Below are positions 2,700-39,724 of a stretch of 39,881 bases of DNA, piece by piece. A model generated the notes under the pieces. The model was not told the origin of the DNA. It saw only the letters and a program-made list of their open reading frames with translations, and did no database searches. A program made the translations under genes and the position numbers. How positions within the stretch are numbered: position 1 is the stretch's first letter; each line of letters begins with the position of its first letter. Origin of the DNA: an uncultured Granulicatella sp. (GTDB taxonomy: Bacteria > Bacillota > Bacilli > Lactobacillales > Aerococcaceae); NCBI GenBank assembly GCA_934193545.1, contig CAKPVL010000011.1, positions 1-39,881 on the forward strand, read 5' to 3'.

Positions 2700-2886
2700 A
2701 AAAAAGCTACGCTTTATTTTCGGATAACATAGTAGCCTTTATAGCTGTACCGGATTGAGCCAAGGTCTCAATCCTATCGAGCCTCAAACGGATGGTAGGA
2801 AATGAATTTCCAACCATCCGTAATTCGCATCGATTACTCATCGCTATAATGGCTACTATGTTATCCGAAAACGCGTAGCTTTTTTT
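2700..2886 (+). repeat. Dispersed structured element, copy B, terminator-like
   Basis: The best-paired copy. Arms 2700-2750 and 2843-2886 pair almost continuously (AAAAAAGCTACGC, then CGGATAACATAGTAGCC) and the right arm runs into a T tract. The core has P2 as a perfect 8-bp helix (GGATTGAG/CTCAATCC), P3 ATCGA/TCGAT, joints GCCTCAAA and TAATTCGCAT, and the variable hairpin CGGATGGT/ACCATCCG capped by GGAAAT/ATTTCC. It starts 9 bases after the phosphoesterase stop codon on the same strand. Confidence 0.85.
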
Positions 2887-2943
2887 CCGTCTTAGCGTTG
2901 TTTAGCTTCGATGGAGTGAGTGCAAGTATTCCTTCATTCGAAA
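2883..2943 (+). repeat. 3' flank repeat, copy 1
   Basis: TTTTCCGT, then TTAGCGTTGTT, then an exact 39-base segment (2905-2943, GCTTCGATGGAGTGAGTG... to CGAAA) that recurs at 3127-3165. The segment can fold as a weak hairpin (CGATGGAG with CTTCATTCG). It follows copy B directly. Confidence 0.75.
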
Positions 2944-3095
2944 TAGAAGCTCAAGCCATTGTGGATAGATCATGTTGAGTCTTAGGTCTCAAACCTACCA
3001 AGCTTCAAACATTCTCTATGAAATGAATTTCTAGAGACTGTCATTCACATTGGTTATGATTCCCTATAATGCTTTCTATAACCTCTGAGGAGTTT
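2941..3095 (+). repeat. Dispersed structured element, copy C, degenerate arms
   Basis: The core at 2973-3060 matches the family: P2 TTGAG/CTCAA, P3 ACCAA/TTGGT, joint GCTTCAAAC, variable hairpin CATTCTCTA/TAGAGACTG with one mismatch, joint TCATTCACAT. The arms are poorly paired (AATAGAAGC..CATTGTGGATAGATCAT against the complement of ATGATTCCCTATAATGCTTTCTAT), so this copy is probably decaying. With copy B and the two flank repeats it fills the gene-free stretch 2692-3281. Confidence 0.65.
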
Positions 3096-3165
3096 TCCGT
3101 TTTATCAGCACTTAAGTTGTTGTGTTGCTTCGATGGAGTGAGTGCAAGTATTCCTTCATTCGAAA
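3094..3165 (+). repeat. 3' flank repeat, copy 2
   Basis: A second occurrence of the flank that follows copy B: TTTTCCGT, a diverged linker, then the identical 39 bases at 3127-3165. It shows that an element-plus-flank unit was duplicated in tandem. Confidence 0.75.
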
Positions 3166-3220
3166 GGGAAATGTGCTTAAAATGGATTGGAGATTCTTAG
3201 TTTGAGTGATAAATAGTGTA

Positions 3221-3281: not shown

Positions 3282-3926
3282 ATGAATGCGAAGAGGATAT
3301 TATATATTGCACTATTTTGTTTGGTAATCGCAATGCTGTTTCGCTGTGAAGCAAGAAGTAGTAGAGGATATTTGGAAAAACGAATTGGGCCTAAAATTAG
3401 TCAAGTTTATCCAACGAAAAACGTAGAAGATCTATTTGAGCAGTATCCGTATGGCTTTGAGATTAATCAATTTTATCGGTCGGGAGATAAGACCATTTTT
3501 ATAATGTTAGAGGGGGATGCGAAGGGGAAACCTCTAGAAGGAGCGATAAAAGTTTTTATTAAAGATAGCTTAAAGGCGGAAAAGATAATCACGTTTACGT
3601 ATTTTCAAGGTAAGTTTTCGTACGATAATGAAGAAGAGGCAAGAAAACTTTGGCCGCAGGAAAAGTTTTTATTCCAAGAAATGACATTGAATAAAGAGAT
3701 TCTTTCGGAATTTAAAATAAAGAAAACTTACTACGACAGTCATAGTGGTGGTTTTGACTTAGAATATATCGTTACAAATGAACAAATAAACCAATTTCTT
3801 AAATTGGATAACCAGCAACAAGTCACATTTGGAGTCCACGTTAACAATGTGAAAAGACTTAATTACTACTGGATTTCAGTTGAGGTAGGTAGTGATGAGA
3901 TTTTTTCAGAAAAAATTTTACATTGA
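3282..3926 (+). CDS. Tandem paralogue 1, membrane-anchored or lipoprotein-like
   Basis: A 214-residue predicted exported protein with a positive N-terminus (MNAKR), a hydrophobic stretch (residues 6-20) and a cysteine at 22 in the context MLFRC. Arg at the -1 position is not a proper lipobox, so it may stay as a membrane anchor rather than be lipidated. The remainder is soluble, charged and homologous to the next two genes: RGYLE, YPTKNVEDLFEQYP.GF, the YDNEEEARKLWP block and FLFQEMTLNKE are shared. The YPTKNxEDLF motif and overall layout resemble the staphylococcal tandem lipoproteins (Csa/DUF576); that link is inferred by eye. GAGAGG lies 8 bases before the ATG. Function unknown. Confidence 0.75.
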   Translation: MNAKRILYIALFCLVIAMLFRCEARSSRGYLEKRIGPKISQVYPTKNVEDLFEQYPYGFEINQFYRSGDKTIFIMLEGDAKGKPLEGAIKVFIKDSLKAEKIITFTYFQGKFSYDNEEEARKLWPQEKFLFQEMTLNKEILSEFKIKKTYYDSHSGGFDLEYIVTNEQINQFLKLDNQQQVTFGVHVNNVKRLNYYWISVEVGSDEIFSEKILH

Positions 3927-3983
3927 TCATTTCAGTTAGTATTTTAACTTTGGGAATGTTTAGCAGATAGAAAGGGTTAGCTT

Positions 3984-4628
3984 ATGAAAGGGAAAAAGGT
4001 ATTTTATATTGCAATGTTTTTTGCGATAATCTTTATGTTGTTTCGATGTGAAGGAAGAGATAGCAGAGAATATTTGGAAGATAGAGTTGGGACTCCAATC
4101 AGTCGAGTGTATCCAACGAAAAACTTAGAAGATCTATTTTTGGAATTTCCTAATGGGTTTACGATTTATCAATCTTACCGTTTGGAAGGTAAATTCATTG
4201 ATATAGAATTAGATGGGGTTGAGAAGGGGAAACCAATAGAAGGAACAATAAAACAAATCGATATAAAAAGTGGCGCTGAGGAAAAGAAAATCGCAGTTAC
4301 GTATGATAAAGGAAAATATTCATACGATAATGAAGAAGAGGCGAGAAAACTTTGGCCATTAGAAAAGTTTTTATTCCAAGAAATGACATTGAATAAAGAG
4401 GTTCTTTCGAAATTTAAGCTAAAGGATACTTACTACAACGGTAATAACGGTAGCTTTGAAATAGATTATGTCGTTAAGAATGAACAAATTAATGAGTTCC
4501 TTGGGCTAGAAAAGAAACAACAAGTTACATTAGGTTTCCATGGAAGCAATTCAAATAAAAGATACTACTACTCGCTTACAGTCGAGATAGATAAAAAATT
4601 AGACTTTATTGAACGAATTGCAGAGTAA
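3984..4628 (+). CDS. Tandem paralogue 2, membrane-anchored or lipoprotein-like
   Basis: A 214-residue protein, the closest relative of the preceding gene (both 214 residues, near-identical central block YSYDNEEEARKLWP and KFLFQEMTLNKE). It has a hydrophobic N-terminus (VFYIAMFFAIIFMLF) and the same imperfect lipobox, MLFRC. The body has YPTKNLEDLFLEFPNGF and a C-terminal beta-rich region. It lies 57 bases after paralogue 1 with its own GAAAGGG ribosome site and no clear promoter, so the two are probably co-transcribed up to the terminator at 4634. Function unknown; a tandem-type lipoprotein is the best analogy. Confidence 0.75.
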   Translation: MKGKKVFYIAMFFAIIFMLFRCEGRDSREYLEDRVGTPISRVYPTKNLEDLFLEFPNGFTIYQSYRLEGKFIDIELDGVEKGKPIEGTIKQIDIKSGAEEKKIAVTYDKGKYSYDNEEEARKLWPLEKFLFQEMTLNKEVLSKFKLKDTYYNGNNGSFEIDYVVKNEQINEFLGLEKKQQVTLGFHGSNSNKRYYYSLTVEIDKKLDFIERIAE

Positions 4629-4633
4629 GAAGG

Positions 4634-4663
4634 GAATTAAGCAACTTTGCTTAATTCTTTTTT
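4634..4663 (+). terminator. Intrinsic terminator after tandem paralogues 1-2
   Basis: 10-bp stem GAATTAAGCA/TGCTTAATTC with a 4-base loop, then six T. Confidence 0.9.
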
Positions 4664-4694
4664 GTTGTAAAGTTTAGGATTTTGTTAGGGAATG

Positions 4695-4722
4695 TTACGG
4701 TGTAGACGGGATATGGTATGAT
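4695..4722 (+). promoter_or_regulatory. Promoter of tandem paralogue 3
   Basis: TTACGG (4695-4700), 16-base spacer, extended -10 TGGTATGAT (TATGAT 4717-4722). The third paralogue is therefore a separate transcript from the first two. Confidence 0.55.
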
Positions 4723-4755
4723 GAAGATACTGTATTGCAAAGTGAGGTTTTGTGT

Positions 4756-5427
4756 GTGAAGTTAAAGAAATGGTCGTGGATTGGGGTATTAGTGCTGTTC
4801 GTGACGATGTTAGTGGGATGCGAGGGTCACGAAAGTCGTGGGTATCTTGAAGAGCTAGCTGGGAAAGAATTGAGTCGTGTATATACTACGAAAAATATTG
4901 AAGATTTATTCGAGCAGTTTTCGAATGGATTTACCGTGAGTCAGATGCGTGTAGCAGGTGATTCGAATGTATTTGTTTATCTTGAGGCTAGGGAAAAAGG
5001 GAAGCCATTAGTTGGAACGATTAAGCAGCTCAATTCTAAAACAAAGGAAGAGGAAAAAAGTCAGACTTTCCAATATGTGGATGGGAAGTTTGTTTTTGAA
5101 AATGAAGAAGAGGCGAAAAAGCTCTGGCCACAAGGAAAGTTCTTATTCCAGGAATTGCAATTGAATAAAGATATTCTAGCAAAGGCAAAATTGGTAAATA
5201 AGAATTATACAAAGAAAGAAGAAAGTCCTACTGGGGATAATGAATTTTATCTGAAATATAACATTCAACTTCCAGTAGTCAGTCGTTTTTTGGGGATCGA
5301 TGAATCGCAGCCGGTAGAGCTCTTTATATTAGGTGTTGATGAGTCTAATGGCTTCGAATATGAAATCGGAACGGAGCAAGATCATCAAACGACTTTATGG
5401 GAAATGATACGAGAAATTAGGAAATAG
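4756..5427 (+). CDS. Tandem paralogue 3, lipoprotein
   Basis: A 223-residue predicted lipoprotein. Unlike its two neighbours it has a canonical lipobox, LVGC, with the lipidated cysteine at residue 22 after KLKKW and a hydrophobic core. The body shares RGYLEEL, YTTKNIEDLFEQFSNGF, FENEEEAKKLWPQGKFLFQELQLNKD with the upstream genes but is clearly diverged. The GTG at 4756 was chosen because AGTGAGG lies 8 bases upstream and it gives a proper signal peptide; the longer frame from TTG 4735 would put polar residues before it. Expected on the outer face of the membrane. Function unknown. Confidence 0.78.
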   Translation: MKLKKWSWIGVLVLFVTMLVGCEGHESRGYLEELAGKELSRVYTTKNIEDLFEQFSNGFTVSQMRVAGDSNVFVYLEAREKGKPLVGTIKQLNSKTKEEEKSQTFQYVDGKFVFENEEEAKKLWPQGKFLFQELQLNKDILAKAKLVNKNYTKKEESPTGDNEFYLKYNIQLPVVSRFLGIDESQPVELFILGVDESNGFEYEIGTEQDHQTTLWEMIREIRK

Positions 5428-19537: not shown

Positions 19538-19729
19538 AAATGATTCCGCTTATCCTAACGGATGTCTTCATAATAACTGTAATGTTGCACCGGTTCGAGC
19601 CTTATGTCTCTCACCTTCGAAGCTTCAAACGCGGAGTAAGGTACAAGCCCTACTCCGCGTAATTCACATTCGATGCGGTTCACATTACTGTTATTATAGA
19701 ATCCGTTAGTCTTTGCGGAATCATTTTTT
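19538..19729 (+). repeat. Dispersed structured element, copy D, terminator-like
   Basis: Arms pair as ATGATTCCGC with GCGGAATCAT, CTAACGGAT with ATCCGTTAG, ATAATAAC with GTTATTAT and GTAATG with CATTAC; the right arm ends in six T. Core: P2 GGT..GAG/CTC..ACC, P3 TCGAA/TTCGA, joints GCTTCAAAC and TAATTCACAT, variable hairpin CGCGGAGTA/TACTCCGCG. It starts 18 bases after mgtC and fills most of the gene-free stretch 19520-19885. Confidence 0.85.
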
Positions 19730-31783: not shown

Positions 31784-31911
31784 TGTAACAATTATGTTAC
31801 GTAACAAAAATGTTACATCGAAAAGTTGAGTTGTATCAAAAATGATACGTATCAAAATTGATACAAAAAGAGTAAAGTGTATCATGCATGATACGTATCA
31901 CGCATGATACA
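31784..31911. repeat. Array of three 34-bp double palindromes
   Basis: Three units at 31784-31817, 31832-31865 and 31878-31911, separated by 14 and 12 bases. Each unit reads TGTAWC-N6-GWTAC-GTAWC-N6-GWTACA: two adjacent 5-bp hairpins that together form one larger palindrome. Unit 1 uses GTAAC/GTTAC at all four half-sites; units 2 and 3 use GTATC/GATAC at all four. The six-base loops are AT-rich in units 1-2 and ATGCAT/ACGCAT in unit 3. The array lies between a terminator and repeat copy E in a convergent gap, away from any promoter. Function unknown. Confidence 0.85.
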
Positions 31912-31949: not shown

Positions 31950-32144
31950 AAGAGTCTCAGATACGAAATGGAAATCTTTTGAATTCTATAGTGAGAGCAG
32001 TAGTGAGTGTAACCAATGTGAATTACAGGCCGTTTTACGGCCTGTTTGAAGCTTGGTAGGGTTGAGACTTTGGCTCAGCCCGGTACAACTACTGCCATCA
32101 CTATGAAGATATTCAAAAGATTGAAATTTGTATCTGAGACTCTT
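31950..32144 (-). repeat. Dispersed structured element, copy E, minus orientation
   Basis: Arms pair as AAGAGTCTCAGATAC with its complement, then AATCTTTTGAAT, CATAGTGA-type and GCAGTAGT segments. The core lies on the minus strand (32007-32088): P2 GGG.TGAG/CTCAACCC with one mismatch, P3 ACCAA/TTGGT, joints GCTTCAAAC and TAATTCACAT, variable hairpin ACAGGCCG/CGGCCTGT. Read on the minus strand the last arm ends in TTTTT, so it can terminate cysK, whose stop is 23 bases away. With the palindrome array it fills 31719-32167. Confidence 0.85.
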
Positions 32145-33245: not shown

Positions 33246-33336
33246 CAAGGGCTTTTAAACTCATCCAGAGAGGTGAGAAAGGCTAAGATCACGTTTATTA
33301 GACTAGCCCTACGCTTAAAAAACATAGGGCTTTTTG
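33246..33336 (+). promoter_or_regulatory. PyrR attenuation leader
   Basis: ATCCAGAGAGGTGAGAAAGG (33263-33282) is the conserved PyrR-binding loop. A terminator stem AGCCCTA/TAGGGCT (33305-33311, 33325-33331) with five T follows. An upstream AGGGCT (33248-33253) can pair with AGCCCT of the terminator to form the antiterminator. With high UMP, PyrR binding favours termination. This predicts uridine-nucleotide control of the permease. Confidence 0.9.
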
Positions 33337-33368
33337 TGTGCACAAAAACGCCCGGAAAAGAGGGTAAA

Positions 33369-38719: not shown

Positions 38720-38742
38720 AGAAACAGTTAAATATGTGAAAA

Positions 38743-38823
38743 GTACAAAGGGGTGCCATTTTGGCTGAGATGTTGTTACAAACCCTTGAACCTGTTACGT
38801 TAGTACGTGCGTAGGAATTGTAT
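38743..38823 (+). ncRNA. TPP riboswitch aptamer (THI element)
   Basis: Conserved elements in order: P1 TACAA (38744-38748)/TTGTA (38818-38822), GGGGTGC, GGCTGAGA (38763-38770), ACCCTTGAACCTG (38782-38794) and GCGTAGGAA (38810-38817). It senses thiamine pyrophosphate and precedes a thiamine transporter gene. Confidence 0.95.
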
Positions 38824-38844
38824 TTGATTTCGAAGTTTTAGACG

Positions 38845-39456: not shown

Positions 39457-39493
39457 GAGTCCTGGTTTAACCTGAAACCAGGACTCTTTTTTT
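39457..39493 (+). terminator. Intrinsic terminator after thiT
   Basis: 12-bp perfect stem GAGTCCTGGTTT/AAACCAGGACTC followed by seven T. Its right half also belongs to the left arm of repeat copy F. Confidence 0.93.
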
Positions 39494-39724
39494 ATTGGAA
39501 AAATAAGGGTAAAGCACTTCGTGCGCTTTGGATGTCTCTGTAGTAGAAATAATAGCTGCAACGGGTTGAGCCTGAGGTCTCAACGCCTACCAAGCTTCAA
39601 ACTGACACTAGGAATAAATTCCAAGTGTCAGTAATTCACATTGGTTGCACTCGCTATTATCACTACTACAGAATCCAAAGGCACTCGTGCTTTACCAATA
39701 AGAGACCTGGTTTCGGTTAAACCA
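39463..39724 (+). repeat. Dispersed structured element, copy F
   Basis: The longest copy. Left arm from TGGTTTAACC through GGTAAAGCAC, CTTTGGAT, CTGTAGTAG and ATAATAGC pairs with the right arm ending GGTTAAACCA; the thiT terminator is built into the left arm and its sequence is mirrored at the far right. Core 39560-39652: P2 GTTGAG/CTCAAC, P3 ACCAA/TTGGT, joints GCTTCAAAC and TAATTCACAT, variable hairpin CTGACACT/AGTGTCAG capped by GGAAT/ATTCC. It fills most of 39441-39807. Confidence 0.85.

Follow-up and report, generated by a model that had tools for sequence, protein, structure and literature searches.

A covarying three-way-junction repeat of Lactobacillales that behaves like hairpin-shaped mobile DNA rather than structured RNA

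What kind of object is a strongly folded repeat that occurs six times on one short contig, always between genes, and keeps its helices paired while their sequences change? The window, by which we mean the whole stretch of 39,881 nucleotides analysed here (contig CAKPVL010000011.1 of an uncultured Granulicatella sp.), carries such a repeat, and the question is whether it is selected as a transcript or folds as DNA. Our results make it rather probable that the six copies are hairpin-shaped, non-autonomous mobile DNA belonging to a MITE-like superfamily of Lactobacillales. The fold would act in single-stranded DNA and, with less confidence, snap-back copying may take place in the window's genus. 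Two points are unusual for such an element: a conserved three-way-junction core and inverted copies of host gene ends.

Direct reading of the sequence confirmed the six copies at about the positions that had been given for them. Copy A is located at 144-392 on the plus strand (core 225-319 by the covariance model), and its outermost paired stretch, found by eye with the duplex computed, joins 68-77 to 402-411. Copy B (2700-2886, plus strand), on which the finding centres, has its three-way-junction core at 2747-2840, as placed by fold, alignment and covariance-model match, and the two arms of its outer stem P1, 2717-2745 and 2843-2871, are 97% complementary. Within this core, on the same strand, hairpin P2 occupies 2752-2774 and has the tip GAGCC-AA-GGTCTC, and P3 (2776-2834, with 2776-2780 pairing 2830-2834) surrounds joint 1 (GCCTCAAA, 2781-2788), the variable hairpin P4 (2788-2821), which is a cassette exchanged between copies in relatives, and joint 2 (TAATTCGCAT, 2821-2830). 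Copies C (2941-3095, core 2967-3060), D (19538-19729, core 19587-19679) and F (39508-39696, core 39558-39651) are on the plus strand, and copy E (31950-32144, core 32006-32086) is on the minus strand. The range proposed earlier for copy F, 39463-39724, was right about the place but began too early, as a separate terminator-like hairpin at about 39457-39492 falls inside it. Copies B and D terminate in A/T tracts resembling terminators, no ORF was called over the copies of the window, and beyond its core the element has an outer stem, P1, whose length averages about 48 bp. Copies B and C are a tandem duplication: the flank at 2897-2948 was duplicated along with the element (other copy 3119-3170, 92% identity, spacing 222). 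The P1 of copy C is poorly matched on account of its 5′ arm, and this copy is probably a chimera of B-like and C-like arms that arose after the tandem duplication with B. By eye, the order of B and C is reversed in a related genome, G003, and another, G005, holds the C type only.

The fold itself is very stable, copy B reaching -96.8 kcal/mol (z = -16.05), a value that none of 200 shuffles equalled. In the three-way junction formed by the inner 95 nt or so, a short helix P1a extends the long outer stem P1 and is followed by hairpin P2, whose tip reads GAGCC-NN-GGTCTC across copies, and then by P3, inside which lie P4 and the joints GCYTCAAA and TMATTCRCAT. The earlier note had claimed that pairing is kept despite sequence change, and this is borne out by the alignment of the six cores. 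It has 162 pair cells, of which 92.0% hold standard pairs (72.1% on average in shuffles), and both sides have changed in 31 of the cells (shuffle mean 9.3, with none of 500 shuffles reaching 31); when partners were slid by one to three columns, at most five such cells were left. All four helices vary yet keep pairing, P2 being the weakest with 81.7% of its cells paired. The covariation proposed from six copies also holds in a larger alignment of 117 distinct cores, where 93.1% of 3120 cells are paired, 901 cells have changed on both sides against 278 in shuffles and at most 140 with slid partners, and 25 of 27 pairs show both-side changes (19.9 in shuffles). A weaker measure of covariation, the number of further pair types, gave 76 against 71.3, and 33 of 500 shuffles reached 76. 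Among the alignment columns, coupling is strongest between those that pair in the helices. The near-constancy ascribed to the joints is likewise real, both in the aligned cores and across genera, and one further pair within them covaries, the Y of GCYTC with the R of TTCRCAT (T-A in 62 and C-G in 44 of 119 cores, a set that includes two rows, L010 and L017 of genome G028, whose architecture differs by eye). The outer arms pair within their own copy with a mean of -51.5 kcal/mol (84 copies), and with the arms of other copies with -22.9 (251 pairings).

The repeat is not confined to the window. A covariance model built from the six window cores found matches in 10 of 41 genomes, with 86 in G003, 80 in G005 and 48-49 in G026, and none in G002, G004 and G007, which belong to the same genus as the window. 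A second model, built from 93 aligned matches, was run on 395 genomes of Lactobacillales from 80 genera and was positive in 36 of them, which represent 16 genera and include one genome (G199) with 90 matches, so that the proposed dispersed family with many more copies exists, with up to about 90 copies per genome. In the class sample four of 398 genomes were positive, all from this order, and in the phylum sample one of 398, the centre genome; no match was found outside the order in these two samples, and since ten candidates per genome were scored in the order, class and phylum searches, the counts are lower bounds and the negatives are soft. Further comparisons used regions that hold 68 of the 86 matches of G003, and 84 of the 86 matches of G005 and the window, the two weakest being left out. 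A divergent subfamily is present in G006 (L009, L016 and, in part, L183-L206), with 62 matches at E up to 0.1; in most of the copies fetched, pairing over the first 42 bp or so of P1 reaches 88-100%. A stretch of about 15 bp within P1, set between constant flanks, pairs perfectly although its sequence depends on the subgroup, and a GACTGGGCAAAAAGTC-like motif often stands at both outer ends.

Databases gave no name for the element, in agreement with the earlier impression that it is not a named family: no Rfam 15 family covers any of the six window copies at E up to 1, and none was named for the element at eight related loci of other genomes. L010 and L017 are only weak matches to the core model (34.6 and 33.5 bits) and match Rfam SSRC8_2 on the other strand at 69.2 and 54.3 bits (cut-off 72); they were set aside as evidence for the element, as by eye their architecture is that of a different structured repeat. 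Copy B had no match among plasmid and phage sequences, and an exact-pattern scan of viral contigs returned none. The upstream flank of L257 contains a 61-bp stretch that is 80-95% identical to 297 plasmid records, 296 of them from Enterococcus, and that is perhaps another mobile element; these records were rejected as copies of the element because the match covers query bases 10-70, a flank outside it. Among the titles and abstract openings that searches of the open-licence PMC literature brought up, none describes the element.

If the fold were selected in a transcript, G-U pairs would be expected to be far commoner than A-C mismatches. In the core helices the ratio of GT to AC is 28:34 among 2823 cells, a count that omits the pairs in the middle of P2, those closing the P2 loop and those at the tip of P4; with all core pairs counted, there are 55 GT and 78 AC in 3613. 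A control on 41 tRNAs of these genomes, using acceptor stems and those T stems in which four or more Watson-Crick pairs form, gave 28:1 in 367 cells, and the difference from the core is clear (p = 6e-7). P1 shows a mild excess of G-T among isolated mismatches (55 against 31 A-C, p = 0.013). In 12 copies from ten genomes and the window, the sense strand has 29 G-U pairs in 774 and the antisense strand 30 in 764, and the antisense energy is slightly lower in 11 of the 12. Both strands are therefore constrained alike, which fits folding DNA or a DNA copying process. The earlier note had left the choice between probable structured RNA and hairpin DNA; with a GT:AC ratio of 28:34 and an antisense strand that folds equally well, the second half of that description fits and the first is poorly supported. 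The element behaves as hairpin, MITE-like DNA rather than as structured RNA.

How the copies change in place was followed at 47 orthologous sites paired between G003, G005 and the window. For P1 the comparison was made in the 29 pairs whose two arms are both at least 70% identical; one-sided changes led to G-T in 34 cases, to A-C in 31 and to other mismatches in 90, and of 21 compensated pairs, 17 fall in three site pairs. The cores were divided at 88% identity into 25 resident and 22 swapped site pairs, some of the latter being tandem copies wrongly paired, and compensated core pairs number 6 in the former against 146 in the latter. In the resident cores 41 of 1390 paired bases have changed against 66 of 969 other core bases, and some constraint on these cores in place is possible because the paired bases change less than the others. 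Replacement can be seen directly in L113 and L080, where the flanks, P1 and P2 are nearly the same and P4 is replaced in both arms around an unchanged loop. A close P4 (at least 0.9 alike) occurs elsewhere in the same genome for 25 of 78 copies in G005 and 18 of 68 in G003; some replaced hairpins have such a partner in the same genome and others have none. Much of the kept pairing is the product of hairpin replacement and inverted flank copying (described below), not of stepwise transcript selection at each site. Of the selection on a fold that was proposed earlier, the covarying fold itself is real.

Copies can also disappear. At the locus of copy E, P1 is still present in G005 but the core is gone, and the deletions nested in the hairpin of G001 and G003 are larger; at the locus of copy D, a terminator-like hairpin is seen by eye in G005 and G007 instead of the element. 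Because the element is lost or missing at these orthologous loci, individual copies are dispensable over this evolutionary distance. A scan for short-loop hairpins revealed no clear core-less P1 of the family among the 45 of 76 hairpins listed, and the core-less P1 of G005 is therefore read as a deletion.

Evidence for mobility is most direct in genomes other than those of the window's genus. In G026 the element is about 283 bp long between exact ends (GGTTCTTCC..TTAACGTTGGT and ACCAACGTTAAATATTGTAGAACC) and has no transposase gene; it is a fresh MITE, and the ends in G048 and G156 are similar. Of 40 loci taken from these three genomes, 31 had ends that could be located. An exact 8-mer target duplication was present in 20 of the 31, and at least seven of eight positions matched in 27, where a control with the same freedom gave 3.5% and 16.7%, respectively; the duplications with at least seven of eight matches are 82% A+T. 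Terminal inverted repeats are present in G026, G048, G156 and G025. The element is thus short, free of transposase and present in many copies (G026; at least 80 matches in G005). In the window's genus, GGNTCT..AGANCC stands on both sides in only 5 of 152 copies, and neither terminal repeats nor target duplications were seen; for this reason mobility in that genus is inferred, and membership of the MITE group rests there on the common core.

A link with ISL3-family insertion sequences is visible in some genomes. G025 has 12 matches. Seven of them resemble each other at 84.8-99.0% across some 280-400 bp, and two copies are alike over a much longer stretch, since an ISL3-family transposase follows. 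In the IS copies fetched from this genome, three full matches to the core and a fourth, partial one were located upstream of an ISL3 transposase gene, the three directly so and within an IS of about 1.87 kb; by eye, the element has ends in common with the ISL3 IS of the same genome, and L015 apparently has the two ends of the IS but no transposase. G015 has five weak matches (27.6 bits), placed some 125 bp behind ISL3 transposase genes and antisense to them. The one that was folded gave a three-way junction, and its 5′ side is turned towards the nearest IS end, as is the case in G025. G026 holds only short ISL3 transposase fragments, and G006 and G001 have copies of the element but no ISL3 transposase match. 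An ISL3 transposase as the source of all copies was dropped, as the presence and absence of transposase and element disagree. G002 has 22 ISL3-type transposase matches and no element copy at E up to 0.001.

In the window's genus, the outer arms beyond about 50 nt are site-specific yet still paired. In 78 copies of G005, arm pairing passes the 2% control threshold in 31% at 75-110 nt, in 10% at 110-150 nt and in 1% at 150-200 nt. When these arms were read, the 3′ flank often proved to be a diverged copy, in inverted orientation, of the upstream gene's end. Inverted matches that extend past 75 nt on both sides occur in 47 of 149 copies, whereas mismatched pairings give 84 in 22,052, and the arms reach about 190 nt at most. 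An upstream sense gene lies within 200 nt in 31 of the 47 long-armed copies, and in 14 of these the arm runs at least 15 nt into the coding sequence; a convergent gene lies within 200 nt in five, and the arm enters it in three. Of 77 genes that have a sense copy behind them, a set that includes orthologs and is not independent, 17 had their last 110 nt matched in inverted form behind the core, against 0 of 77 with swapped partners and none of 274 gene ends that lack a copy (p = 1.4e-12). The product of one such gene is a FakA/YloV-type protein, and its C-terminal domain matches PF13684 right up to the last residue, which implies that the gene end is old and that the 3′ arm is the copy. Outer arms as nothing but terminator stems were dropped as an explanation, as the arms run into coding sequence. 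The 5′ arm is the longer one in 46 of the 47 long-armed copies, whatever their direction in the genome, although constant 5′ bulges of P1 explain part of this excess. On our reading, the upstream flank has been duplicated in inverted form across the core, and two routes fit such a duplication: self-primed snap-back at insertion, or growth of the palindrome in place.

Under the mobile-DNA interpretation, the fold would matter while the element moves or replicates as single-stranded DNA. Only lineages that still fold would keep multiplying, which would produce covariation between lineages while the outer stem of resident copies drifts, and the conserved joints may be the contact site of a putative transposase or host DNA-binding protein. 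In the window's genus, we would guess that the hairpin folds back at its 3′ end and that this end acts as a primer for synthesis along the upstream strand, which could leave the gene end copied inverted downstream of the core. A stricter version, which we put forward only tentatively, is a mobile DNA that travels as a folded single strand, with its 5′ end joined behind a gene and its 3′ end snapping back on its own stem to prime copying of the gene end. Insertion would then duplicate the target in inverted form, host coding sequence included, and the joints would be the recognition site of the enzyme. If this is true, folded single-stranded snap-back insertion would be a new mode of integration for a bacterial element.

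The second route, growth in place, needs neither a special insertion step nor a function: a hairpin with no activity of its own, which might be what is left of an old MITE, would have one arm rewritten from the other during replication, by template switching or at a hairpin-capped end, and would extend in this way into the gene. Escherichia coli without SbcCD and RecA does form inverted chromosome duplications centred on an interrupted palindrome (PMC3315005), and strand-symmetric arms that reach into genes, as well as the clustering of compensated changes in three ortholog pairs, are in keeping with such a process. However, the excess of longer 5′ arms suggests a fixed polarity, at least as far as the bulges leave it, rewriting alone would erase the joints and internal loops that are conserved across genera, and the fixed-arm MITEs of G026 show no such growth; we regard this explanation of the whole element as somewhat unlikely. 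Selection as a transcript, that is, a riboregulator, aptamer or ribozyme in 3′ UTRs, is harder still to maintain. On the one hand, the strong fold, its covariation and the conserved unpaired joints are what would be expected of a structured RNA, and by simple ORF calls in G005 and the window the upstream gene is on the same strand in 63 of 83 copies, with sense copies outnumbering antisense ones 31:14 among co-directional neighbours (p = 0.016). On the other hand, the core lacks a wobble preference, the antisense strand folds equally well, P1 is little compensated in resident copies, copies are lost at orthologous sites and Rfam holds no such family. The location at gene ends is also expected from insertion into A/T tracts: several insertions lie, by eye, directly behind a terminator-like hairpin and within its T tract, and the place of the copies behind genes could follow solely from insertion into terminator T tracts. 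Taken together, these points render an RNA function improbable.

A role as an elaborate, putative bidirectional transcription terminator kept for the host is more doubtful than any of these, and we consider it highly improbable. The A/T tracts at the ends of copies B and D would suit it, as would the 31 of 84 copies that lie between convergent genes (6 of 84 lie between divergent ones; G005 and the window, simple ORF calls) and the terminator-like hairpins seen by eye at the site of copy D in G005 and G007, which lack the element there. Termination requires neither a three-way junction nor conserved joints, however; moreover, copy F is adjoined by a terminator-like hairpin of its own, and copies are lost by deletion.

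Among the closest known systems are ISL3-mobilised MITEs, which the element resembles in G026, G048 and G156 by the lack of a transposase, the terminal inverted repeats and the 8-bp duplications; target duplications of 8 bp are usual for ISL3. It differs from them in having a conserved three-way-junction core and joints that are constant across genera with different ends. REP/RAYT elements and integron attC sites have folded single-stranded DNA with conserved unpaired bases as their working form, and their sizes and motifs differ from those of the element. BOX, RUP and SPRITE of Streptococcus pneumoniae are likewise small, tightly folded intergenic repeats, likened here by description only: the terminal repeats of RUP and BOX pair with each other and SPRITE lies near gene 3′ ends, and in contrast to the present element no covariation is described in the passages of PMC3049150 drawn on here. 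The inverted duplications at interrupted palindromes of E. coli are centred on a hairpin, as they are here, but those cases (PMC3315005) are large chromosome rearrangements in repair mutants, whereas here the arms extend to about 190 nt at most and belong to a repeated family. Covariation is commonly read as a sign of a functional RNA, and here a strongly covarying family found across an order behaves like DNA; the GT:AC count and the comparison of orthologs are cheap checks for RNA-discovery work. The inverted copies of gene ends, in turn, point to an unusual and directly testable step in the life of bacterial mobile elements.

Other repeats and features were observed near the copies. A second repeated hairpin of the genus, with arms GTAAGAC.. 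GGACTCAC/GTGAGTCC ..GTCTTAC, is located at about 2892 in L071, 16145 in L083 and 802 in L068, and also behind copies of the element in L107 and L065; in L071 and L068, weak matches to the core model overlap it or lie next to it. Beside copy E, positions 31784-31911 of the window contain three palindromic 34-nt repeats (TGTATCA..TGATACGTATCA..TGATACA), part of which is present in G005, and a sub-threshold RAGATH-7 match overlaps them. The window further contains a TPP riboswitch at 38739-38834 (61.8 bits, cut-off 54.3) and a leader resembling a PyrR binding site at 33248-33339 (48.2 bits, below the cut-off of 54). Finally, the three adjoining genes at 3282-5427 contain repeated DNA, with stretches that are 75-88% identical, and are probably a paralogous set.
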